From Pseudonocardia autotrophica (lineage in GTDB: Bacteria; Actinomycetota; Actinomycetes; Mycobacteriales; Pseudonocardiaceae), in contig NZ_AP018920.1 in assembly GCF_003945385.1 (NCBI RefSeq), positions 2,666,001 through 2,730,000 of the forward strand: a stretch of DNA of 64,000 nucleotides, given 5' to 3'. This document shows, in pieces, positions 40,430-51,370 of this stretch (the first letter of the stretch is position 1; each line of letters starts with the position of its first letter). Made by a program: the position numbers and the translations under genes. The notes under the pieces are model-generated. The model was not told the origin of the DNA. It worked only from the letters and a program-made list of their open reading frames with translations, and searched no databases.

Positions 40430-42565
40430 GTGACCCCGATCGATCGGACCACCGTGACGGCACTGCCCATGACATCCATGACCGCTTCACCCCCCACACC
40501 CGGGGCGCGGCGGCGACACTCAGGACCCCTGCACCCGGTCGAACTCGCGCAGGCGGCGATGGCGGCCGCCCTGTGCACCGGCATCGCGGTCACCGTGGCC
40601 GTGGTGCCGTTCGCGGCCGCGTTGACCGTGCTGGCCGCGGTGCCGTTGGCGCTGCTGGTCCACCGGCACCGGTTCCGGGTCGTGGGTGCGGCGATGGTCG
40701 CCTGCGCGGTCGTCGCCTTCCTCGTCACCGGCAGCGCCGGGCTGAGCGTGATCGTCGTAGCCGCCTACATCGGTGCTCTGATCGGATGGGTCCGGCGACT
40801 CGGCGGGGGCACTCCGGCCGCGCTGGTCAGCGCGCTGGCCGCGAGCCTGGTGTTCGGGGCGTGTGCGGTCGCCGCGATGGCCGCGCTGGCCCGGTTGCGC
40901 GAACTGCTGTTCGCCTCGATCGCCGCCTACGCCGACGGGATGGCACTGGCCGTCGGCTCCGTGCCCGGCGGCGCGGTGGCCGGGCAGTGGATACGCGACG
41001 TCGTCGCGTCGGGGCTGGCGAACTGGCCTGTGTGGGCGTTGAGCACGGCGGCCGTGGCGGTCACCGGTTCGACGATGATCGGCTGGTGGGCGCTGGCGCA
41101 GGTACTCGATCGGATCGCCGGGCTGCCCGACGGCCACAAGCTCGACGGCGATCCCGACGACCGGCCGTCCGGCCCGGTACCCGTCGTGCTGCGGGACGCC
41201 CGGTTCCGCTACCCCGGTGCCGATCGGGACGCTCTCCACCCGGTGAACACCACGATCGCCGCCGGCGAGCACCTTGCGGTCACCGGCACCAACGGATCGG
41301 GCAAGACCACGCTGCTGCTGTTGCTCTGCGGCCGGGCGCCGACGTCCGGAGCGGTGACGCGGCCCGGAGCCGTCGGGCTCGGCCGCCGCGGCGGCACCGC
41401 GGTCGTCATGCAGCACCCGGAGAGCCAGGTGCTCGGCACCCGGGTGGCCGACGACGTGGTCTGGGGCCTGCCCGACGACCGGATCGTCGACGTGGAAGGG
41501 CTGCTCGGGAAGGTGGGCCTCGCCGGGATGGGCGATCGAGGCACCGGCAGCCTGTCCGGTGGTGAGCTGCAACGGCTCGCGATCGCCGCGGCGCTGGCCC
41601 GCGAGCCGGGCCTGCTGATCGCCGACGAGATCACCAGCATGGTCGACCCGCAGGGCCGCGTCGCGCTCACCGGAATGCTCACCGGCCTGGCCCGCGACCA
41701 CGAGATGGCGCTGGCCAACATCACCCACTACGACGACGAAGCCCGCTCCGCGGACCGCACTCTCGCACTGGCCGGCATCCACCACGAGGCCCGCGACGAG
41801 GCCGGAACCTCCATGGTCTCGACCGCTCCGGCTCCGTCGGCATCGTCGGCAGCGGCAGCGCCGTGGTCGTCGCTGCCGGGCTCGGTCGGCACTCCGCTGC
41901 TACAGCTCGACGGGGTCGGCCACGAGTACAGCAGCGGGACGCCGTGGGCGTCGACCGCGCTGCGTGGGATCGACCTGGAGGTGGGCCGGGGCGACGGGCT
42001 GCTGATCCACGGCGGCAACGGGTCCGGGAAGTCCACCCTGGCCTGGATCATGACCGGGCTGCTGGCGCCGACCTCGGGCCGGTGCCTGTTCGCCGGAAGG
42101 CCGGTGGCCGAGCAGGTCGGATCGGTGGCGCTGTCGTTCCAGACCGCCCGGCTGCAGCTGACCCGCGGCCGGGTCGACCTCGACATCGCAGCGGCCGCCG
42201 GATTCGACCACCGCGATCACGCCCGGGTGAGCCGGGCACTGGAATCGGTCGGCCTCGATCCGGCGCTCGGCTCATGTCCGGCCGACCGGCTCAGCGGCGG
42301 CCAGATGCGCCGGGTGGTCCTCGCCGGGCTGCTGGCCGGCGAGCCGCAGGCGATCGTCCTGGACGAGCCGCTGGCAGGGGTCGACGCGGCCGGCCGGGCC
42401 GGGCTGCTCACCCTGCTCACCGACCTGCGCCGGGAGACCGGTCTCACCGTGGTCGTCATCTCGCACGACTTCGCCGGGCTCGAGGAACTCTGCCCACGCA
42501 CCGTGCACCTGAGCGACGGCGGCTGGGAGCCGGTCACCGCGCCGTCCATCGGGAGCGGGTCATGA
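40430..42565 (+). CDS. ECF transporter: membrane domain fused to two ATPase domains
   Basis: A 711-residue fusion. Residues about 35-230 form a membrane domain of five or six helices, taken as the substrate-binding (S-like, DUF2232-type) part. Two ABC ATPase domains follow. The first has GTNGSGKTT (about 285), LSGGELQR and LLIADEI; the second has GGNGSGKST (about 530), LSGGQMRR and IVLDEPLAGVD. A linker rich in Ala/Ser/Pro joins them. Mycobacterium tuberculosis Rv2326c, next to the EcfT-like Rv2325c, has the same layout. The GTG at 40430 is assigned, with ATG 40469 as an alternative. The stop overlaps the EcfT start (ATGA). The substrate is unknown, probably a vitamin-like compound or metal. 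Confidence 0.85.
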   Translation: MTPIDRTTVTALPMTSMTASPPTPGARRRHSGPLHPVELAQAAMAAALCTGIAVTVAVVPFAAALTVLAAVPLALLVHRHRFRVVGAAMVACAVVAFLVTGSAGLSVIVVAAYIGALIGWVRRLGGGTPAALVSALAASLVFGACAVAAMAALARLRELLFASIAAYADGMALAVGSVPGGAVAGQWIRDVVASGLANWPVWALSTAAVAVTGSTMIGWWALAQVLDRIAGLPDGHKLDGDPDDRPSGPVPVVLRDARFRYPGADRDALHPVNTTIAAGEHLAVTGTNGSGKTTLLLLLCGRAPTSGAVTRPGAVGLGRRGGTAVVMQHPESQVLGTRVADDVVWGLPDDRIVDVEGLLGKVGLAGMGDRGTGSLSGGELQRLAIAAALAREPGLLIADEITSMVDPQGRVALTGMLTGLARDHEMALANITHYDDEARSADRTLALAGIHHEARDEAGTSMVSTAPAPSASSAAAAPWSSLPGSVGTPLLQLDGVGHEYSSGTPWASTALRGIDLEVGRGDGLLIHGGNGSGKSTLAWIMTGLLAPTSGRCLFAGRPVAEQVGSVALSFQTARLQLTRGRVDLDIAAAAGFDHRDHARVSRALESVGLDPALGSCPADRLSGGQMRRVVLAGLLAGEPQAIVLDEPLAGVDAAGRAGLLTLLTDLRRETGLTVVVISHDFAGLEELCPRTVHLSDGGWEPVTAPSIGSGS

Positions 42566-43389
42566 GCGCCCCCGCCGGGCCGCGCCGTCCGGTGGTACTG
42601 CGCCCGCTTCCCGGCGGTTCTCCGGTGCACGAGCTGTGGGCCGGGACGAAACTGATCGTCATCGCTGCGATGGGGCTGCTGCTGGCATTGTTCCCCGGCT
42701 GGGTGCCGATCGGGCTGGTGGCCGTGTTCCTGTTCGTCGGCCTGCGGGCCGCCCGGGTCCCGCGCACGGCGATGCCCACGGTGCCCCGCTGGCTGTGGCT
42801 GCTCCTGGCACTGTCCGGCGCGACGGTCGCACTGGCCGGGGGTGCCCCCTGGGTCGATCTCGGGGTGGTTCGTCTCGGGTTCGGTGGGCTGCTCGACTTC
42901 CTGCGCCTGATGTCGTTCATCCTGGTGCTGCTGGTCCTGAGCGTGCTGGTGGCGTGGACCACCGACCCGGCCGACGTCGCACCCGCGCTCGCCCGACTCG
43001 GTCGGCCGCTGAAGGTCCTCCGGCTGCCGGTCGACGACTGGGCCGTCACCCTCGCGCTGACCCTGCGGGCCCTCCCGATGCTGCTCGACGAGCTGCGCGT
43101 CCTGTTCGCCGCCCGCCGCCTGCGACCCCGGCCCCCTGCGGCGACCCGGCGTCGGCGGTACCGGCGCTGGGCGGCCGACCAGGTCGATCTCATCGCCACC
43201 GCGATGACGGTCGCGTTGCGCCGGGCCGACGAGATGGGCGATGCCATCACCGCCCGCGGCGGGTCCGGCCGGCTCGCGGCGCGGCCGTCCCGACCGGGCG
43301 CCGCCGACGCGCTGGTCCTCGGCGTCGTGGGCATCGTGTGCGCGCTGTCGGTCCACATCGAGCTCATCGCCCCGCTGGGGAGCGGCTGA
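42562..43389 (+). CDS. ECF transporter transmembrane component (EcfT/CbiQ family)
   Basis: A 275-residue membrane protein with four to six helices. The coupling-helix region shows VTLALTLRALPMLLDELRVL and MTVALRRADEMGDAITARGG, which contains the conserved Ala-Arg-Gly signature that docks on the ATPases. Together with the fused upstream protein it would make a complete ECF transporter of four functional parts on two polypeptides. It overlaps that gene by 4 bp. A short Arg/Pro-rich loop (about 180-205) lies between the two signature helices. Confidence 0.88.
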   Translation: MSAPAGPRRPVVLRPLPGGSPVHELWAGTKLIVIAAMGLLLALFPGWVPIGLVAVFLFVGLRAARVPRTAMPTVPRWLWLLLALSGATVALAGGAPWVDLGVVRLGFGGLLDFLRLMSFILVLLVLSVLVAWTTDPADVAPALARLGRPLKVLRLPVDDWAVTLALTLRALPMLLDELRVLFAARRLRPRPPAATRRRRYRRWAADQVDLIATAMTVALRRADEMGDAITARGGSGRLAARPSRPGAADALVLGVVGIVCALSVHIELIAPLGSG

Positions 43390-43447
43390 TGGCATCCGCC
43401 GGCGCCGTAGCCACCCGGATCATGACCCGACGAGGAGCCTCCGTCCG

Positions 43448-44668
43448 ATGCGCATCCTGATCGGCGCCGACACCTACGCCCCCGACGTCAACGGTGCGTC
43501 CTACTTCGCCGGCCGGCTCGCGGCCGGACTCGGTGGACGGGGCCACGAGGTGCACGTCGCCTGCCCCTCCCGCACACTGCGCGGCTCGTGCACCGTCGTG
43601 CCGGGCACGGGCATCGTCGAACACCGGTTCGCCTCCCTCCCGGTGCCTCGCCCGACCGACTTCCGGATCAGCGTGCGGCCCGGGCTGGTGCACCGTGCCC
43701 GGTCCCTGCTGCGGCAGGTGCGCCCCGACGTCGTCCACGTGCAGAGCCACCTGCTGCTCGGCCGGGCCCTGATCGTCGCGGCGAAGGCGGTGGGAACCCC
43801 GGTCGTGGCCACCACCCACGTACTCCCGGACAACCTGGTTCCGTACCTGCCGCTGGGGTCCGGCGGGCTGGAGCGGGCCCGGCGGTGGTTCTGGCGGACC
43901 GCGGTCGACGTGCTCGGCCGGGCCGACATCGTCACCGCGCCGACCTCCTACGCCGCCCGGCTGATGGAGCGGCACGGGGTCCCCGGACCGGTCGTGACGA
44001 TCTCCAACGGGCTCGACCTGACCCGGTTCCACCCGGACCGCGACGGAGCGGCGTTCCGTCGCCGGCACGGTCTCGACGACCGCCCCACCGTCGGCTACCT
44101 GGGCCGGTTGGATCCGGAGAAGCACCTCGACGAGCTGCTCGCCGCCGTCGCGGCACTGCGCCGGACGACCGACGCCCAGCTGGTGATCGTCGGGGACGGG
44201 GACCGGCGCCCGCAGCTCACCGCACTGGTCCGGGGCCTCGGACTCGAGCACTCGGTGGTCATGACCGGCCGGCTGCCCGATTCGGAGATCCCGGACGCCT
44301 ACGCGGCGATGGACGTGTTCGTGAACCCGGGAACCGCCGAGCTGCAGAGCTTGGTGACCCTGGAGGCGATGGCCACGGGGCGTCCCGTGGTCGCAGCGGA
44401 CGCGGGCGCTCTGCCACATCTGGTCCAGCACGGCCGCAACGGCTACCGCTACCCGCCCGGCGCTCCCGCCGTGCTGGCCGGGCACCTGGACCGGCTGCTG
44501 GCGCGCCCGGACGAAAGGGCCAGCGCCGGCCTGCAGAGTCTGCAGATCGTCGGCGGGCACGCGCTCGACGCGACGTTGGCCGACTTCGAGACCGCCTACA
44601 CGCGTGCAGGTTCGAGGCCGCTGCGGGGCTGCCCTGCGCCCGCCGGCACAGAGGTCACGGCGTGGTGA
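43448..44668 (+). CDS. GT4-family glycosyltransferase
   Basis: A 406-residue GT-B glycosyltransferase. The N-terminal acceptor domain begins MRILIGADTYAPDVNGASYFA, and the donor domain has VGYLGRLDPEKHLDELL and the E-x7-E motif (Glu298 and Glu306) in AELQSLVTLEAMATGRPVV. It resembles the mannosyl/glucosyltransferases that work on phosphatidylinositol or glycolipids. The ATG follows a GAGGAG. It lies 58 bp after EcfT on the same strand, so it could belong to the same transcript. The C-terminal 15 residues look disordered. Confidence 0.88.
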   Translation: MRILIGADTYAPDVNGASYFAGRLAAGLGGRGHEVHVACPSRTLRGSCTVVPGTGIVEHRFASLPVPRPTDFRISVRPGLVHRARSLLRQVRPDVVHVQSHLLLGRALIVAAKAVGTPVVATTHVLPDNLVPYLPLGSGGLERARRWFWRTAVDVLGRADIVTAPTSYAARLMERHGVPGPVVTISNGLDLTRFHPDRDGAAFRRRHGLDDRPTVGYLGRLDPEKHLDELLAAVAALRRTTDAQLVIVGDGDRRPQLTALVRGLGLEHSVVMTGRLPDSEIPDAYAAMDVFVNPGTAELQSLVTLEAMATGRPVVAADAGALPHLVQHGRNGYRYPPGAPAVLAGHLDRLLARPDERASAGLQSLQIVGGHALDATLADFETAYTRAGSRPLRGCPAPAGTEVTAW

Positions 44669-44703
44669 GGAGTCCGGCCCGGTGGCTCGATCCGACGATC
44701 ACC

Positions 44704-45318
44704 TCACCGCGGGGCCTCCCCGAGGCGAGCACCCCCGTCGCTCCGGGTCGACGTGGTGCGGTGCGCCGCGAACCCGTCGGCGATGAGCGCGAGCCCCGCC
44801 TCGTAGGCGAGCTCGTGGTCGATCCGGGGGCCCTCGGAGCCCGCGGGCTGTCCGGGAGAGTCGGCCTCGGCCTGCTCCTCCAGCACGGAGCCGACGGTGA
44901 ACCGGCTCGCGGCGAGCATCGCCAGCTGCGCGTGGTGCTCGCTGAAGCCGGAGCCGATGAGGAACGCCATCTTGTGGCCGATGCGTTCCCGGTCGGCGGC
45001 GCTCGGCCGGATACCCGCGTGCAGGCGTGCACCGTCGCGGCGGATCAGGAGCGTGCGGCGGAAGCTGCGGTGGTTCTCGAGGAACCAGTCGTACCAGTCG
45101 TCGGTGGACGTCGGCAGCGGCGCGGTCGCGTGCGGCGCCATCGCGGCCTCGGCCATCGCACTGAGGAGGTCCTCCTTCTTGGCGAAGTGGTAGTAGAGCG
45201 AGGGCTGCTCCACTCCGAGCCGTCGTGCGAGCCCGCGGGTGCTGATCTTGTCCAGCCCCACCTCGTCGAGCAGGTCGAGTGCCTCGGTGATCACCGCATC
45301 CCGGTTCAGCTTCGCCAC
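44704..45318 (-). CDS. TetR-class repressor with conserved tetracycline-pocket residues
   Basis: A 204-residue repressor that aligns without gaps to Tn10 TetR over residues 1-105. The recognition region (GVEQPSLYYHF; Arg28, Gln38, Pro39, Tyr42, His44) matches TetR except T40S and W43Y. In the ligand domain Asn82, Phe86, His100, Arg104 and Pro105 are kept, within SFRRTLLIRRDGARLHAGIRP. His64 is replaced by Ala (His63 is present) and Gln116 by Lys, so the ligand may not be tetracycline. GTG 45318 is chosen because TetR homology begins there. It is divergent from a flavin monooxygenase, with two tetO-like operators between them. Confidence 0.92.
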   Translation of the reverse strand: MAKLNRDAVITEALDLLDEVGLDKISTRGLARRLGVEQPSLYYHFAKKEDLLSAMAEAAMAPHATAPLPTSTDDWYDWFLENHRSFRRTLLIRRDGARLHAGIRPSAADRERIGHKMAFLIGSGFSEHHAQLAMLAASRFTVGSVLEEQAEADSPGQPAGSEGPRIDHELAYEAGLALIADGFAAHRTTSTRSDGGARLGEAPR

Positions 45319-45328
45319 ACTTGACAGT

Positions 45329-45341
45329 CTATCGGTGATAG
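45329..45341. promoter_or_regulatory. tetO-like operator O1
   Basis: CTATC-GGT-GATAG is identical to the Tn10 tetO2 13-bp core CTATCAGTGATAG except for one central base. It lies 11-23 bases upstream of the repressor's GTG, so it suits autorepression. Confidence 0.8.
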
Positions 45342-45361
45342 TCCGAGACTGGAAACGTAAC

Positions 45362-45374
45362 CTTTCAGTGATAG
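45362..45374. promoter_or_regulatory. tetO-like operator O2
   Basis: CTTTCAGTGATAG matches the Tn10 tetO2 core at 12 of 13 positions (T for A at position 3). It ends 10 bases before the monooxygenase ATG and its centre is 33 bp from O1. In Tn10 the two operators also lie side by side between divergent genes. Confidence 0.78.
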
Positions 45375-45384
45375 AAACCGAGTG

Positions 45385-46650
45385 ATGGGCATGGCTATGA
45401 ACACGAACTCCGGGACGCCGTCGCTGCGGATCCTGATCTGTGGCGGCGGAATCGCGGGGCAGGCGCTCGCGTACTGGCTGGGGGAGGGCGGACACCGGGT
45501 GACGGTCGTGGAGCGGTTCCCCGCGCTCCGTGCCACCGGCGCTCAGGTCGACCTGCGCGGGCAGGGGATCGACGCGATCGCGAGCATGGGGCTGCTCGAG
45601 GCGGTCCGTACCGAACTCGTCGACGAGCCGGGTGTGGCGTTCGTGAACTCCCGTGGCACGCCGCGGGCGACGATCATGGCGAACACCTCCGGTCAGGGGC
45701 GTCAGACGCTGACCTCGGAGTACGAGATCATGCGTGGCGACCTGGTCCGCATCCTCCACGACCTGGCGAAGGATGACGCCGAGTACGTGTTCGGGATCGG
45801 CGTGGACCGGGTCGAACAGGACGACGAGAAGGTCACCGCCCACTTCTCGGACGGTACGACCGGCGAGTACGACGTCCTCATCGGTGCGGACGGTCAGGGC
45901 TCCCGGGTCCGTCGTGCGGTCCTTCCCGACGGCGCGGCCGAGCCGTACCGGCAGGTCGGGATCCACATGGCGTACTGGTTCATCCCGCGTATCGCGTCGG
46001 ACCGCAACATCCGCGACACCTACATGGTCCCGGGTGGCCGCCAGATCATGCGGCGCAGCCACAATCCCGAACAGACCCAGGTCTACTTCGTGCTCCGCGA
46101 GGAGTCCGCGGAGGCCTCGGCGATCCATCGCAGCCCGATCGAGGACCAGCAGCGGTTCTGGGCCGACCGGTTCCGCGATGCCGGATGGCAGGTCGACCGC
46201 TTCATCGACGGCATGCGGGACGCTCCGTTCTTCTACTCCCAGGAGGTCGTCCAGGTACGCACCGGCACCTGGTCGAAGGGCCGCGTCGTCCTCGCCGGGG
46301 ATGCCGCGCACTGCGCGTCGCCCTACAGCGGTATGGGGGTGTCGGCCGGTCTCGTCGGCGCCTACGTGCTCGCCGGGGAGCTCAACCGGCACCCGGACGA
46401 CCTCGCCACCGCGTTCGCGAACTACGACGCCACGCTGCGTCCGTTCATCGACGAGGTTCAGGCGAGCGTCAAGCCCGCCCTGCTCAAGCTCGGCATGCCC
46501 AGGAGCCGTGCGGCGATCATCGCCTTCCGGACGGCAACCGCCGTGGCGACCACGCTGCGCATCCCCGAGCTCGTTGCGCGCTTCTCCCGTGAGGACCGTG
46601 GCGGTGCCTGGCAGCTGCCCCCGAACCCGGTGGCGACCGGGGCGCGCTGA
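45385..46650 (+). CDS. Class A FAD-dependent monooxygenase
   Basis: A 421-residue flavoprotein monooxygenase. It has the FAD Rossmann motif GGGIAG (residues 20-25) with VTVVER at the strand end, the DG motif in LIGADGQGSRVRR (about 168) and the GD motif in GRVVLAGDAAHCASPYSGMGV (Asp306). These enzymes hydroxylate aromatic or polyketide substrates, and TetX, which inactivates tetracyclines, belongs to the same class. Its start is controlled by the tetO-like sites, and a drug exporter follows, so xenobiotic inactivation is likely but not proven. ATG 45385 is used; ATG 45391 and 45397 and GTG 45382 are possible. No ribosome-binding site is seen. Confidence 0.85.
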   Translation: MGMAMNTNSGTPSLRILICGGGIAGQALAYWLGEGGHRVTVVERFPALRATGAQVDLRGQGIDAIASMGLLEAVRTELVDEPGVAFVNSRGTPRATIMANTSGQGRQTLTSEYEIMRGDLVRILHDLAKDDAEYVFGIGVDRVEQDDEKVTAHFSDGTTGEYDVLIGADGQGSRVRRAVLPDGAAEPYRQVGIHMAYWFIPRIASDRNIRDTYMVPGGRQIMRRSHNPEQTQVYFVLREESAEASAIHRSPIEDQQRFWADRFRDAGWQVDRFIDGMRDAPFFYSQEVVQVRTGTWSKGRVVLAGDAAHCASPYSGMGVSAGLVGAYVLAGELNRHPDDLATAFANYDATLRPFIDEVQASVKPALLKLGMPRSRAAIIAFRTATAVATTLRIPELVARFSREDRGGAWQLPPNPVATGAR

Positions 46651-46677
46651 GCCGGGCGGACGGCACGACTCGGACGG

Positions 46678-48099
46678 ATGCGAGAGGCAGTGGACTCGAC
46701 CAGGAACGCGCGACCCGCTCGGCTCGGCAGTCTGATCGCGCTGATCGTCACCGGCGGTTTCATGGCCGGCCTGGACACCTCGCTGGTCAACGTCGGACTG
46801 TCCACGATCGCGGACGACCTCGGCGGGTCGCTCGCGGGCACCCAGTGGGTGACGAGCGGGTATCTGCTGGCGCTGGCGGCGGCGCTGCCTGCCTGCGCCT
46901 GGCTGCAGCGGCGGATCGGACCGTCACGACTGTGGATGATCGCGCTCGTCGTGTTCACCATCGCCTCGGTGCTGTGCGCGATCGCGCCCAGCCTGCCGAT
47001 GCTCATCGCCGCGCGTGTCCTCAAGGGCATCGCCGGTGGGCTGCTCGTCCCGACCGGGCAGAACATCATCGTCCGCGCGGTCGATCCCGATCACCTGGGC
47101 CGGGTCATGTCCACCGCGGGCATCCCCATCATGCTCGCTCCGGCGGTCGGGCCGGCTCTCGGCGGCATCCTCGTCGACACGCTGTCGTGGCGATGGCTGT
47201 TCCTGATGAATCTGCCCATCGGGCTGGTCGCCGTGCTGCTCGCCAGACAGATCCTGCCGAGGGACACTCCGGACCCGACGGCCCGGTTCGACGCCGTCGG
47301 GTTCCTCCTGCTGGCCACCGGGCTTCCTGCGCTCAGCCTCGGGCTCTCGTTGTTCAGCACGTCGGTTCCGCTCGCCGCCCTGCTGAGCGGGACCGGGTTG
47401 GCGCTGCTCGCGGCCTACGTGATCGAGGCGTCCCGAGCGCGCCGCCCCGGCGACCGGCCGTCGTTGCTCCATCTCGCGCTGTTCCGGCATCCGCCCTATG
47501 CGATCGCCCAGGTCACCGTGTTCTTCACCGGCCTGAGCCTTTTCGGGGGCCTCATCCTGCTGCCGCTCTACTTCGAGCGACTACGGGGGATGAGCGTCGT
47601 CGGCACCGGTTTCCTGCTGCTCGCCTACGGCGCGGGAGCGACGATGGCACTGATCGTCGGCGGCCGCCTGACCGATCGCCGGGGCGCCGGCATCACCACC
47701 GTCATCGGGCTGATCGTCACCATCGCCGGGACGCTGCCCTTCGTCTTCCTGCCCGCGGACACCCATCTCGTCGTCGTCGAGCTGCTGCAGGCCGTCCGGG
47801 GAATCGGCGTCGGTATGGCGGGCACGCCGGCGATGGCCGCCGTGCTGAAGAGCGGCCGGTCGCATCTCGGCGACTCCACGACGACAGCCAACATCATCCA
47901 ACGGGTCGGCGGTGGGATCGGTAGCGCGATCGTCGTCATCACCGTCAGCCGAGCCGGACTTCAGCCGGCCGGATTCCAGGCGGCCTTCGGCATCCTCACC
48001 GGGACCGCGGTGATCGCTCTGATCGCTGCTGCCGCCCTGGTGGTGTCGGAGCGACGGCAACTACGCGCGACGGTCGACCACCGTCGCGCCGCGGACTGA
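46678..48099 (+). CDS. DHA2-family (14-TM) drug exporter
   Basis: A 473-residue MFS transporter with about 14 helices. It shows the DHA2 helix-1 motif GLDTSLVNVGL (about 31-41) and the antiporter motif C in APAVGPALGG (helix 5). Relatives include EmrB, QacA and Mmr, which expel drugs in exchange for protons. It follows the monooxygenase by 27 bp and should share the TetR-controlled promoter. A perfect 10-bp hairpin lies in its last codons. Together the three genes look like a detoxification cassette. Confidence 0.9.
   Translation: MREAVDSTRNARPARLGSLIALIVTGGFMAGLDTSLVNVGLSTIADDLGGSLAGTQWVTSGYLLALAAALPACAWLQRRIGPSRLWMIALVVFTIASVLCAIAPSLPMLIAARVLKGIAGGLLVPTGQNIIVRAVDPDHLGRVMSTAGIPIMLAPAVGPALGGILVDTLSWRWLFLMNLPIGLVAVLLARQILPRDTPDPTARFDAVGFLLLATGLPALSLGLSLFSTSVPLAALLSGTGLALLAAYVIEASRARRPGDRPSLLHLALFRHPPYAIAQVTVFFTGLSLFGGLILLPLYFERLRGMSVVGTGFLLLAYGAGATMALIVGGRLTDRRGAGITTVIGLIVTIAGTLPFVFLPADTHLVVVELLQAVRGIGVGMAGTPAMAAVLKSGRSHLGDSTTTANIIQRVGGGIGSAIVVITVSRAGLQPAGFQAAFGILTGTAVIALIAAAALVVSERRQLRATVDHRRAAD
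48065..48089 (+). terminator. Hairpin in the last codons of the DHA2 gene
   Basis: GCGCGACGGT (48065-48074) pairs perfectly with ACCGTCGCGC (48080-48089) over a 5-base loop, ending 10 bases before the gene's last base. It is a possible terminator or mRNA-stabilising end overlapping the coding sequence. Confidence 0.4.
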
Positions 48100-48170
48100 A
48101 CGGGTGACCCGTGTCGCCTGGCGGGGGAGGGGCCGGGGTGCCGGCCCGCAGCTCTCGCGCGCGCGGGGAG

Positions 48171-49316
48171 TCAGGCGTGTGCCGCGGCCCGGAACTCGTG
48201 CAGCTGCGCGGGGCCGTCCGGGCCGGTCCAGCTCACCTGGGTGAGCAGCAGGCTGATCACCCCGGTCCGCGGGTCCGACCGCCAGCCGGTGCCCAGACCG
48301 CCGTCCCAGCCGTAGCGGCCGCCGGGCTCGACGCAGAGCCCGAGGCCCCAGCCCGCGCCGTCGAGGAACATCGCGGCGTCGGTGCGCTGGGCGTCGGTGA
48401 GCCGGTCGGTGCTGAGCTCGGCGACGGTGCCGGGGGCGAGCAGCGGCCTGCCGCCGTCGCGCAGTGCCCCGGCGAAGGCCAGCAGATCGTCGAGGGTGGA
48501 GACCAGCCCGGCCGCGCCGGACGGGAACGGCGGCGGCGCGGCCCACGCGCCCCGCACCGGATCGACCACGGTGAACCCGCCGTCCCGGTCCGCGGCGAGC
48601 TGCGGGACGAACCGGTCCAGCTTCGCCTCGGGCACGTGGAAGGCGGTGTCGCGCATGCCGAGCGGAGCGAACACCCGCTGGTGCAGCAGATCCGGGAGAT
48701 CCTGACCGCAGACCCGGGCGAGCAGCACGCCGAGGAGGTCACCGCTGGTCTGGTAGGCCCAGCGCTCCCCGGGCTGGGCGATCAGCGGGATCGCGGCGAG
48801 CCGGCGCAGCCACTCGTCCGGCGGTGGGGGCTGGTAGCGGCCGGGCGGCCCGTCGCTGCCCAGCCGGGCGTCGGCGTAGGCGCGCTGCACCGGCAGATCG
48901 GCGGTGAACCGGGGCAGCATCCCGATCCCGCAGCGGTAGGACAGCAGATCGGCCAGGGTGATGGCGCGCCGGGCCGGGACGGTGTCGTCGAGCTCGGCGG
49001 CCTCGTGCCGCAGCACCCGGGGCTCGGCCAGCTCGGGCAGCCACCCGGTGAGCGGATCGTCGAGGTCGAGCACGCCGTCCTCGACCAGGCCCAGTGCCGC
49101 GACCGCGACGACCGGCTTGGTGATCGAGGCGATCCGGACGACGGTGTCCCGGCGCAGCGGGTGGCCGGCGCCGTCGTCGCCGAGCACGTGCACCTCGGTG
49201 TCCGCGCGCGGCCGGTCGATCGCGGCGAGCAGGCCGGGCGCCCGGCCGCTGCCGACGAGGTCGCGCAGCGTCCGCGCGACCTCGCCGGACGGGATGTGGT
49301 CGAGCTCGGTGGGCAC
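48171..49316 (-). CDS. Class C beta-lactamase-like serine hydrolase
   Basis: A 381-residue protein of the beta-lactamase/DD-peptidase fold. The active-site SxxK is in IASITKPVV (about residues 63-71), the tyrosine is in WAYQTSGDLLG, and the third motif is GWDGGLGTGW. No signal peptide is seen, so it is probably a cytoplasmic esterase or peptidase of the EstB kind rather than a resistance enzyme. It is convergent with the DHA2 gene and upstream neighbours do not suggest a pathway. Confidence 0.85.
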   Translation of the reverse strand: MPTELDHIPSGEVARTLRDLVGSGRAPGLLAAIDRPRADTEVHVLGDDGAGHPLRRDTVVRIASITKPVVAVAALGLVEDGVLDLDDPLTGWLPELAEPRVLRHEAAELDDTVPARRAITLADLLSYRCGIGMLPRFTADLPVQRAYADARLGSDGPPGRYQPPPPDEWLRRLAAIPLIAQPGERWAYQTSGDLLGVLLARVCGQDLPDLLHQRVFAPLGMRDTAFHVPEAKLDRFVPQLAADRDGGFTVVDPVRGAWAAPPPFPSGAAGLVSTLDDLLAFAGALRDGGRPLLAPGTVAELSTDRLTDAQRTDAAMFLDGAGWGLGLCVEPGGRYGWDGGLGTGWRSDPRTGVISLLLTQVSWTGPDGPAQLHEFRAAAHA

Positions 49317-49373
49317 GGCGCCTCCGCGGGATCGGAACGTGTCACCGGTACCGACCCCGATCGCCGCCGGGAC

Positions 49374-50210
49374 TCATCGCTGCGGCGGGTGCTTGATGCC
49401 GACGCCGCCGACGACGCACCGCTGCACGGCGTTCTCCGGTGTGAGCTGCGGGCCTTCCGGCCACCATCGGTGGCAGGCCACGATGCCGGGTTCGACCAGG
49501 TCCAGGCCGCCGAACAGCTCCCGGATCCGGGCCATCGTCCGGAAGTAGCCGCTACCCATCGGGCTGTGTACGAGGAGGTCCTCGACGCGCCGGGCCAGCT
49601 CGCTGTCGTCGTTCTCGGGGTCGAAGAAGTGCGAGACGACCACGACGCTGCCGGCCGGGAGCCGGTCGAGGTAGCCGGCCATGATCCGGGCCGGTCCGTC
49701 CTCGTCGGCGACGTGGTGCAGGGTGCCGACCTGGAACAGCGCGACCGGCCGGTCGAGATCGAGGAACTGCTGCACCGTCGGGTCGTCGAGGACGCCGCCG
49801 GGATCGCGCAGGTCGGCGGCGAGGAACCGGGTGAGCTCGTTGTCCTCCAGCAGCGCCCGGCCGTGTGCGACGACCGTCGGGTCGTTGTCGACGTAGACCA
49901 CCCGGGCGTCGGGCCGCAGCCGCTGGACGACCTGGTGGGTGTTCTCCGCGGTCGGCAGCCCGGAGCCGCAGTCGAGGAACTGGGTGATCGCGGTCCGGGT
50001 GGCGACGAAGCGGGCGGCCCGGACCAGGAACGCCCGGTTGTCGAGCGCGAACTGGTTGACCTCCGGCGCGACCGCCCGGATCCGTTCGATCACCGCCCGA
50101 TCGACCTCGTAGTTGTCCTTGCCGCCGAGCGCGTAGTCGTAGACCCGCGCGATGCTGGCCTTCGTCGTGTCGATGTGGGCGGGAGCTCGACCGTCGGTCG
50201 GCTGGACCAT
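49374..50210 (-). CDS. DUF574 SAM-dependent methyltransferase
   Basis: A 278-residue methyltransferase of the DUF574 (Methyltransf_19) family, which is abundant in actinomycetes. Its hallmark opening is ARVYDYALGGKDNYEVDR, followed by the SAM-binding QFLDCGSGLPTAENTHQ and VVYVDNDPTVV. The substrate is unknown for the family. ATG 50210 is chosen because GAGGA lies 8 bases before it; GTG 50225 is an alternative. It is divergent from an XRE/DUF5753 regulator, a pairing seen often in this group of bacteria. Confidence 0.9.
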   Translation of the reverse strand: MVQPTDGRAPAHIDTTKASIARVYDYALGGKDNYEVDRAVIERIRAVAPEVNQFALDNRAFLVRAARFVATRTAITQFLDCGSGLPTAENTHQVVQRLRPDARVVYVDNDPTVVAHGRALLEDNELTRFLAADLRDPGGVLDDPTVQQFLDLDRPVALFQVGTLHHVADEDGPARIMAGYLDRLPAGSVVVVSHFFDPENDDSELARRVEDLLVHSPMGSGYFRTMARIRELFGGLDLVEPGIVACHRWWPEGPQLTPENAVQRCVVGGVGIKHPPQR

Positions 50211-50476
50211 CTGCGGAGTCCTCACTGCGCTCGGCGCGGGCGTACGGAGTGACCGGAATCACCTGTTCGGTGCACGGTAGCGGAACTCCGAGCCTCCTGA
50301 GCTGGACGGTTGCGCCGTGATTCGAACACCCTGCTGTGTAAGGTGGACCGCCCGAACGACCGAGCCCCGAGTACCTGAGCAGAGCCACTGCCGGATCCCT
50401 GCCGGCTCCCGCGCCGCACCCCCGGCCGGGTCCTCCGGCCGGGGAGCTCGGCGCAGACCCGGAGGAGCACGCCCCG

Positions 50477-51370
50477 GTGGCCGCGAGCCCGAACAGTCCG
50501 ACACCGCCCGGCGCCGATCGCGGGCCGACGGCGCAGCGGATCGTCCTCGGCTCGCACCTGCGCCGGCTGCGCGAGCGCGCCGGGATCAGGCGCGCCGACG
50601 CGGCGTATGCGATCCGGGGCTCGGACTCGAAGCTGAGCAGGCTGGAGGCCGGCAAGGTCGGCTTCAAGCAACGGGACGTGCTGGACCTGCTCACCCTCTA
50701 CGGGGTCGCCGACGGCCCCGAGCGGGAGCAGGTCATCGCGATGGCGGGGGAGAGCAAGGGCAGCGGCTGGTGGACCCGCTACAACGACGTCGTCCCCGGG
50801 TGGTTCGAGGGCTTCGTCGGGCTGGAGTCCTCGGCGTCCCGGATCCTGACCTACGAGCTGATGTTCGTGCCGGGACTGCTGCAGACCGAGGCGTACTGCC
50901 GCGCGGTGGTGAGCGGCGGTCACGCCGATCTGCCGCCGGACCGGCGGGCCGAGGTGGAGAAACGGGTCGAGGTCCGCCTGCGCAGGCAGAAGGTGCTGCA
51001 CCGCAAGGACGCCCCGACCTTCTGGGTGGTGCTCGACGAGGCGGTGCTGTGGCGTCCGGTGGGTGGGCGTGCGGTGTACCGGGAGCAGATCGAGCACCTG
51101 CTGGACCTGTCCGCACTGCCGAACGTGGTCGTCCAGCTGCTGCCCTGGAGCCTGTCCGGCTACGCCGCCGAGCACGCCTTCACCATGCTGCGGTTCGCCG
51201 AGCCCGAGCTGCCCGACCTGGTCTATCTGGAGGAGATGACGGGCGCGTCGTACCTCGACAAGCGGGCCGACGTCGAGCGCTACGGGCGCTCGATGGACCG
51301 GCTGACCGTCGACGCGCTGAGCCCGGACGAGACCGGGCAGGCGCTGAAGAAGCTGCTCGCCGAGCACTGA
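50477..51370 (+). CDS. XRE-type regulator with DUF5753 domain
   Basis: A 297-residue regulator. The N-terminal helix-turn-helix spans about residues 22-80 (LRRLRERAGIRRADAAYAI; DSKLSRLEAGKVGF). A DUF5753 domain follows, with PGLLQTEAYCRAVV, FWVVLDEAVLWRPVGG and a VVVQLLPWS strand. GTG 50477 follows GGAGGAG. In Streptomyces such genes (the WhiJ-like families) sit next to small DUF397 proteins and influence development or antibiotic production. Here a DUF397 gene follows 134 bp downstream. Confidence 0.9.
   Translation: MAASPNSPTPPGADRGPTAQRIVLGSHLRRLRERAGIRRADAAYAIRGSDSKLSRLEAGKVGFKQRDVLDLLTLYGVADGPEREQVIAMAGESKGSGWWTRYNDVVPGWFEGFVGLESSASRILTYELMFVPGLLQTEAYCRAVVSGGHADLPPDRRAEVEKRVEVRLRRQKVLHRKDAPTFWVVLDEAVLWRPVGGRAVYREQIEHLLDLSALPNVVVQLLPWSLSGYAAEHAFTMLRFAEPELPDLVYLEEMTGASYLDKRADVERYGRSMDRLTVDALSPDETGQALKKLLAEH

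Follow-up and report, generated by a model that had tools for sequence, protein, structure and literature searches.

A candidate tetO-type switch for a flavin monooxygenase in Pseudonocardia autotrophica, with a repressor from the sister clade of the TetR classes

TetR and its operator tetO are among the best-studied repressor systems of bacteria and form the base of the Tet-on/off tools. The Tn10-type tetR/tetA pair, tetR(Z)/tet(Z) and tetR(33)/tet(33) share one arrangement, in which the two genes diverge from a region that holds two tetO-like operators. A related arrangement with an enzyme is described in excerpts of PMC6143652 for Mycobacterium abscessus, where the TetR-family repressor MabTetRx and a tetO operator control the tetracycline-hydroxylating monooxygenase MabTetX. 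The locus considered here lies in a 64,000-nucleotide stretch of the Pseudonocardia autotrophica genome (NCBI RefSeq assembly GCF_003945385.1, contig NZ_AP018920.1, positions 2,666,001 to 2,730,000; "the window" below) and consists of a repressor gene on the minus strand, a monooxygenase gene on the plus strand and two tetO-like sites between them. The original prediction had likened this divergent arrangement to the two-operator layout of Tn10 tetR/tetA, and the same layout is seen by sequence. We propose that the locus is probably a self-contained chemical-sensing switch whose ligand is a chelating polyketide and whose monooxygenase oxidises that same compound. The regulatory half of this proposal, a predicted repressor acting through two operators on both its own gene and the monooxygenase gene, is very likely. 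The case is built on conserved operator-like sites, the matching of repressor residues to operator bases, clade membership, pocket changes and gene pairing, all of which can be read from the DNA. No report of this repressor-monooxygenase pair was found among open-licence papers.

The TetR-class repressor gene (44704..45318, minus strand; 204 amino acids) most likely starts at GTG 45318-45316, and the monooxygenase gene (45391..46650, plus strand; 419 amino acids) probably starts at ATG 45391, with alternatives at 45382 and 45385. The 72-bp gap between this GTG and ATG holds both sites, read here on the plus strand: O1, CTATCGGTGATAG (45329..45341), which has perfect 5+5 arms, and O2, CTTTCAGTGATAG (45362..45374), which has one unpaired arm position. 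Recomputation of coordinates, mismatches and spacing reproduced what had been predicted, in that each site is identical at 12 of 13 positions (one mismatch) to the tetO2 core CTATCAGTGATAG and the two start 33 bp apart. O1 also matches, at all 13 positions, a tet(E) operator of the Aeromonas plasmid pAHH01. A blastn search with the operator region alone returned 15 plasmid records at E values up to 10 (E = 9 for those shown); in the one record opened the match precedes tet(E), and exact 13-mer identity alone is retained from this search. That the site match is a coincidence and the repressor binds elsewhere is highly improbable. Such a coincidence would be in keeping with the 13-mer search at three mismatches, where the window has 5 matches and 2.65 are expected, which is close to the chance level; the operator signal therefore sits in the one-mismatch sites. 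At one mismatch or fewer the window holds two matches against 0.00 expected in 100 shuffles, and in the whole 7.5-Mb genome O1 and O2 are the only matches to CTATCRGTGATAG (backwards-pattern control, one). These statistics, the genome-wide uniqueness and the conservation of the sites across relatives led us to reject a chance match, and the same site placement across genera and the residue 40 agreement described below also argue against it. O1 and O2 are supported as conserved operator-like sites at which binding is predicted.

The sites are closely interleaved with putative promoter elements. On the plus strand, TTGACA (45321..45326) and GAGACT (45345..45350), separated by an 18-nt spacer, are the likely -35 and -10 elements of the monooxygenase promoter; with this pair, O1 would fall between the two elements and O2 shortly past the start point. 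On the minus strand, TAGACT (45326..45331) is the likely -10 element of the repressor promoter. It shares bases with O1 and its end lies only 7 nt from the GTG, so that the repressor is probably translated from a leaderless message. When 24 intergenic regions were aligned, TTGAC was found a few bases ahead of the O1-type site in 22 of them (ahead of the middle site where three sites occur), and an [AG]AnnCT box followed the O1-type site in most.

The association of paired sites with this kind of repressor recurs in other genomes. Thirty-three loci were fetched and the repressor, monooxygenase and exporter sought in each; 24 rows had a close (55-70%) repressor and represent 23 distinct loci (L083 repeats L001), and in 22 of these 23 two or three tetO-like sites with at most three mismatches lie directly upstream of the repressor. 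The exception, L093 (genome G771), has a truncated repressor match without sites or enzyme and is apparently a decaying copy. Among 246 genomes of one genus, apparently Streptomyces, 12 show the double-site pattern, with 8-26 bp between the sites, and in every one of them it directly adjoins a clade repressor; a backwards control of the pattern gave no match among the matches listed for these genomes. The repressor at E <= 1e-50 is present in 13 of the 246, which are the 12 double-site genomes plus G771, and the monooxygenase at E <= 1e-120 is present in 11, all within the 12. In the twelfth, G564 (locus L089), the open frame of the enzyme spans only 140 amino acids beside two sites, and this too is apparently a decaying copy. 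A full-length monooxygenase adjoins and diverges from the repressor in 24 of 27 loci, the exceptions being L089, L093 and L068 (genome G089), where two window-clade repressor copies lie about 1.1 kb apart and the monooxygenase is about 2.6 kb off on the same strand.

It is known from Tn10 TetR mutants that residue 40 reads operator base pair 6, and the natural repressors follow the same rule. For 60 repressor rows the upstream sites were called with a tetO-shaped rule, in which the outer base pair was free but required to be paired; ten rows gave no site, and TetR(C), L028 and L031, which have an extra weaker palindrome with another outer pair, were left out. Residue 40 and base pair 6 agree in all 47 scorable rows, C.G at position 6 occurring with Ser40 (24 rows) or Thr40 (7) and T.A with Ala40 (15) or Gly40 (1), and each trait changes five times on the tree. 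Residue 38 behaves similarly, Gln accompanying T at -3 (one mixed TetR(C) palindrome excepted) and Ala accompanying A at -3, with mixed results for Gly and Ser rows. Residues R28, Q38, P39, S40 and K48 are invariant among the best 120 of 929 proteins at E <= 1e-20, a set that includes the window's own repressor and is also the one used for the pocket counts below. In an excerpt of PMC2723105, the AmtR residue equivalent to residue 40 is given as an operator contact. Upstream of the more distant PF02909 repressors L030-L048, palindromes of the forms TTAAC...GTTAA, CTAAC...GTTAG and TTAGC...GCTAA vary with residues 38 and 40, and these may represent a natural recognition code.

The repressor scores above cut-off for both PF00440 (45.9 bits) and PF02909 (53.2 bits), and its numbering equals that of TetR(B) up to residue 147. 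Its best match in the PDB and best solved relative is SCO0253 of Streptomyces coelicolor (3fiw; E 5.8e-75, 65-66% identity in a fold alignment), a protein for which no open-licence literature naming SCO0253 or 3FIW was found. In a 61-row tree, the window repressor falls in a clade of 25 rows (support 100/99) that is sister to an 11-row clade (99/94; union 95/89) comprising TetR classes A, B, C, D, G, H, Z and 33 together with the actinobacterial genome repressors L028, L029 and L144; removal of the helix-turn-helix columns left the result in place (100/99 and 100/97; union 94/87). Outgroup branches in this tree are long, and the TetR classes it covers are the eight named, with no E, F or newer class among them. 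The earlier description of a "true TetR-class repressor" therefore stands as close kinship and falls as strict membership, the window repressor branching outside the clade of classes A-D, G, H, Z and 33. The comparison with TetR classes that had been called for thus placed the repressor near them, and a distant position combined with chance sites was not found. The score of 194.6 bits against NCBIfam NF010319, below its cut-off of 265, is a weak test, because TetR(Z) (182) and TetR(33) (191.9) fail it too. Within the TetR clade, L028 and L029 combine a complete tetracycline pocket with Ala40 and T.A operators, and they diverge from pumps that score 544.1 and 546.1 bits with the NCBIfam model of the Tet(A)/Tet(B)/Tet(C) family, above its cut-off of 475, from which it follows that the same host family holds both a classical tet switch and a window-type switch. 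L072 (G047) and L073 (G001), from the window's own family, carry a complete-pocket TetR and TTATC...GATAA operators, with a pump of the Tet(A)/(B)/(C) family as the divergent gene, on contigs of 867021 and 124549 bp. By these sequence features L072 and L073 are native classical tet switches in actinobacteria, although a plasmid location is possible.

TetR holds the Mg2+ of its bound chelate with H100 and E147' and binds ring A through H64, N82 and Q116. The residues predicted to be kept in the window repressor (Q38, P39, Y42, H44, N82, F86, H100 and R104) are correct in the alignment, as is the loss of His64 and Gln116, residue 64 being Ala and residue 116 Lys. Among the 120 proteins, N82, H100, P105 and E147 are invariant and F86 is present in 116. 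All 120 have Lys at residue 116; at residue 64, 109 have Ala and none His; Leu135 occurs in 114, Arg112 in 118 and H63, one place before residue 64, in 119. All 24 window-clade rows (23 distinct) and all 10 TetR-clade repressors have the complete set N82/F86/H100/E147, and none of 20 more distant PF02909 relatives (L030-L049) has it in full. The retention of Mg-tetracycline residues beside A64, K116 and L135 suggests a pocket whose chelating end is preserved and whose ring-A end has changed. A chelating polyketide that resembles tetracycline but is different at ring A is the probable ligand, and the pocket changes fit the earlier suggestion of a compound related to tetracycline yet different from it. 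A further lead comes from crystals 3fk6 and 3fk7, whose titles name an engineered TetR H64K/S135L/S138I with 4-ddma-atc, which we take to be anhydrotetracycline without its 4-dimethylamino group. The engineered protein and the natural window clade have L135 and the loss of H64 in common, a likeness that serves as a lead to the ligand and not as evidence for it. No mention of His64, N82 and similar residues was found in PMC13402354. The host genome has 12 matches to ketosynthase domains, two of them strong, and none next to another in the manner of a type II polyketide cluster; because no two adjoin, the ligand is probably foreign, made by other organisms. About 27 kb beyond the window (G000:C1:2756812) there is a strong ketosynthase domain in a 1059-amino-acid open frame, possibly a polyketide synthase.

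The divergent gene encodes a class A flavin adenine dinucleotide (FAD) monooxygenase (PF01494) whose best solved relatives are the type 2 tetracycline destructases Tet(51), Tet(56)-type, Tet(55) and Tet(50) (E 5e-52 to 5e-45), with 31-34% identity to Tet(51), Tet(55) and Tet(56). Its nearest named relative is a monooxygenase of Pseudonocardia sp. ICBG601 (91% identical). According to excerpts of PMC10944477, PDB entries 8twf and 8twg, which bear other names in the PDB, are Tet(56-3) and Tet(56-2); the same excerpts name 19 destructase-conserved positions and put D47 and E102 forward as destructase marks. Of 17 such positions placed by script, 16 match in the window enzyme, E147 being replaced by Gly, and L23, another of the conserved positions, matches by eye; the marker pair D47/E102 is non-discriminating. 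The enzyme scores 204.8 bits against the NCBIfam destructase family NF033476 (cut-off 550), and Tet(51), Tet(55) and Tet(56) form a 100/100 clade of their own apart from it, deeper forks being unsupported. The TetX-type reading of the original prediction thus survives as regards superfamily, that of class A flavin monooxygenases, and does not extend to membership in the type 2 destructases, which the enzyme resembles in sequence as candidate kin. No passage on the regulation of the enzymes concerned was found in the excerpts of PMC5988894. On a Kitasatospora plasmid (L149, 1359-3688), a TetR_C-type regulator diverges from a 41%-identical monooxygenase near a type I polyketide synthase.

In the mechanism that we propose, a dimer of the TetR-sister repressor would bind the two tetO-like operators. 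O1 would sit between the putative -35 and -10 elements of the monooxygenase gene and on top of the repressor -10 element, and O2 just after the monooxygenase start point, a placement from which repression of both genes would follow. A metal-chelating aromatic polyketide would be held by H100 and E147' via Mg2+ and by N82 and F86, as in TetR; its ring-A end would differ to suit A64, K116 and L135, and its binding would release the repressor. The monooxygenase would then be made and would oxidise the ligand, most likely for detoxification. Several points weigh against this proposal. H64 and Q116 are lost and I103 stands in place of T103, so that tetracycline itself may not bind, and H63 could stand in for H64. 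A 31%-identical paralogue in the host genome likewise has D47 and E102, as do plasmid homologues from other phyla, so these residues do not discriminate destructases. Independent residue-40 pairs are few (three on well-supported branches, five on all; sign test p 0.25), and the rule by which sites were called is itself tetO-shaped. The AlphaFold models (mean predicted local distance difference test scores of 65 and 56) are of too low a quality for conclusions about the pocket, on which they offer no independent evidence, and the PDB matches of the repressor model add nothing to the sequence-based result. Finally, operator binding, induction and enzyme activity are all predictions, as are the promoter roles and the ligand class, and the substrate of the enzyme is deduced from its position under the same switch.

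A genuine tetracycline resistance switch, with tetracyclines or anhydrotetracycline as inducers and the monooxygenase as a third type of destructase, would work like MabTetRx/MabTetX, and we judge it unlikely. It would explain why N82, F86, H100, P105 and E147 are kept, why the nearest solved enzymes are Tet(51), Tet(55) and Tet(56), and why 16 of the 17 destructase-conserved positions match, and there is a precedent in MabTetRx, which excerpts of PMC6143652 describe as released by tetracycline, doxycycline and anhydrotetracycline. What speaks against it is that residue 64 is never His and residue 116 always Lys among the best 120 of the 929 proteins, and that the monooxygenase, at 204.8 of 550 bits, misses the destructase cut-off and falls outside the type 2 clade.

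Quite unlikely, in turn, is a catabolic or house-cleaning switch in which a non-antibiotic aromatic ligand would control an ordinary aromatic hydroxylase. Among NCBIfam models the enzyme does score best with PRK07588, a generic family of FAD-binding proteins (227.4 bits, short of the cut-off of 454), 21 further places in the host genome match it at E <= 0.001, and no polyketide synthase is evident, by eye and without a family search, among the open reading frames of 42500-50500. A switch of this kind would sit poorly with a full N82/F86/H100/E147 set that, among the loci compared, occurs only in the window clade and TetR proper, and with a sporadic, partly plasmid-borne distribution like that of a resistance trait.

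The distribution of the pair is indeed sporadic and partly plasmid-borne, as that of a resistance trait would be. In the host's own genus, 5 of 62 genomes have the repressor at E <= 1e-30, of which only the host and G995 (68%) belong to the window clade; at the looser limit of E <= 1e-20, 41 of 150 genomes of the family have a match. Four of 249 genomes in an order-wide sample, the host included, have one at 1e-40, and a phylum-wide sample of 396 genomes gave no repressor relative beyond the host genome at 1e-45. The pair is also found on linear plasmids of Streptomyces and, beside recombinase genes, on a Frondihabitans plasmid, and the matches listed include repressors of 68-70% identity in Martelella, Neorhizobium, Rhizobium and Phyllobacterium. 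The guanine-plus-cytosine fraction of the repressor, monooxygenase and downstream exporter genes is 0.70-0.72, against 0.737-0.738 in the surroundings. We tentatively suggest, as a possibility that we would not yet favour, that the locus is a mobile actinobacterial resistance switch against an Mg2+-chelating aromatic polyketide without the ring-A groups of tetracycline, perhaps an anhydrotetracycline- or anthracyclinone-like compound without a 4-dimethylamino group, and that the clinical tet switches share with it an ancestor that had paired tetO sites and a chelating pocket. If this is true, tetracycline sensing would be a single offshoot of a more ancient lineage of polyketide sensors. The natural sister clade is large and shares the operator type, but its pocket is altered and an oxygenase stands where the tet switches have a pump; it thereby makes it possible to test directly how the choice of ligand evolved and which ligand came earlier. 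There is also a practical side, in that 13 of the 246 genomes of the genus that appears to be Streptomyces carry a close relative of the repressor, 12 of them with the double site, and unwanted cross-talk is possible because a clade repressor is predicted to bind the tetO of genetic tools.

Downstream of the monooxygenase, after 27 nt, lies a gene for a DHA2-type exporter of the major facilitator superfamily (MFS; 46678..48099, plus strand), which is probably co-transcribed with it here and whose identification in the original prediction is borne out by TIGR00711 (284.1 bits; cut-off 230.2). The accompanying idea that oxidation and efflux form one conserved unit has to be given up, the window exporter being absent from all 27 related loci at E <= 1e-5. 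We rejected the exporter as a part of the module for this reason and because its best-scoring listed homologue, on a 160657-bp contig (8000 candidates scored), is 60% identical, against 82% and 91% for the closest listed homologues of the repressor and monooxygenase, each on a 989067-bp contig. Such exporters are common, occurring at E <= 1e-60 in 23 of 60 related genomes, the host included. Twenty-three related loci were scanned for downstream genes and ten chosen neighbours were put to Pfam, giving three MMPL transporters (L086, L092, L154) and one MFS protein (L146); from these results, an exporter beside the oxygenase recurs in a few loci but comes from unrelated families. In L074 (G015) and L075 (G107), distant PF02909 repressors with TTATC...GTTAA-type sites diverge from exporters 39-42% identical to that of the window.

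One apparent connection to a known tetracycline locus was set aside. On pAG1 (L126, 13133-16049), next to tetR(Z)/tet(Z), there is an FAD monooxygenase 37% identical to that of the window with a divergent, unrelated TetR-family gene. A direct link through this enzyme and the second TetR was dropped, the latter not being TetR-class (30% identity over 174 residues, 24% over a larger alignment); the intergenic region concerned holds no site with three or fewer mismatches, and one with four.

Among described systems, SCO7222/SCO7223 resembles the window pair in that the genes of a TetR-family repressor and a monooxygenase diverge with less than 200 bp between them and repression of the enzyme gene is shown (excerpts of PMC3511530), but differs in that no tetO-like operator is noted in those excerpts. 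The destructases Tet(50), Tet(51), Tet(55) and Tet(56) are likewise class A flavin monooxygenases, whereas the window enzyme, with Gly at the E147 position, stands in a separate clade below the family cut-off. MabTetRx/MabTetX, likened here by description, differs in forming a single operon with a 35-bp operator (excerpts of PMC6143652), and MabTetX is less than 25% identical to type 1 and type 2 destructases according to those of PMC10944477. With the Tn10-type, Z and 33 switches the window shares R28, Q38, P39 and Y42, the rule that links residue 40 to base pair 6, and N82, F86, H100 and E147, while it departs from them in its sister-clade position, its A64/K116/L135 pocket and a flavin monooxygenase partner instead of a TetA exporter. 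From these features the locus is predicted to work like the tet switch and MabTetRx/MabTetX, and by clade and pocket it stands outside the tetracycline repressor classes.

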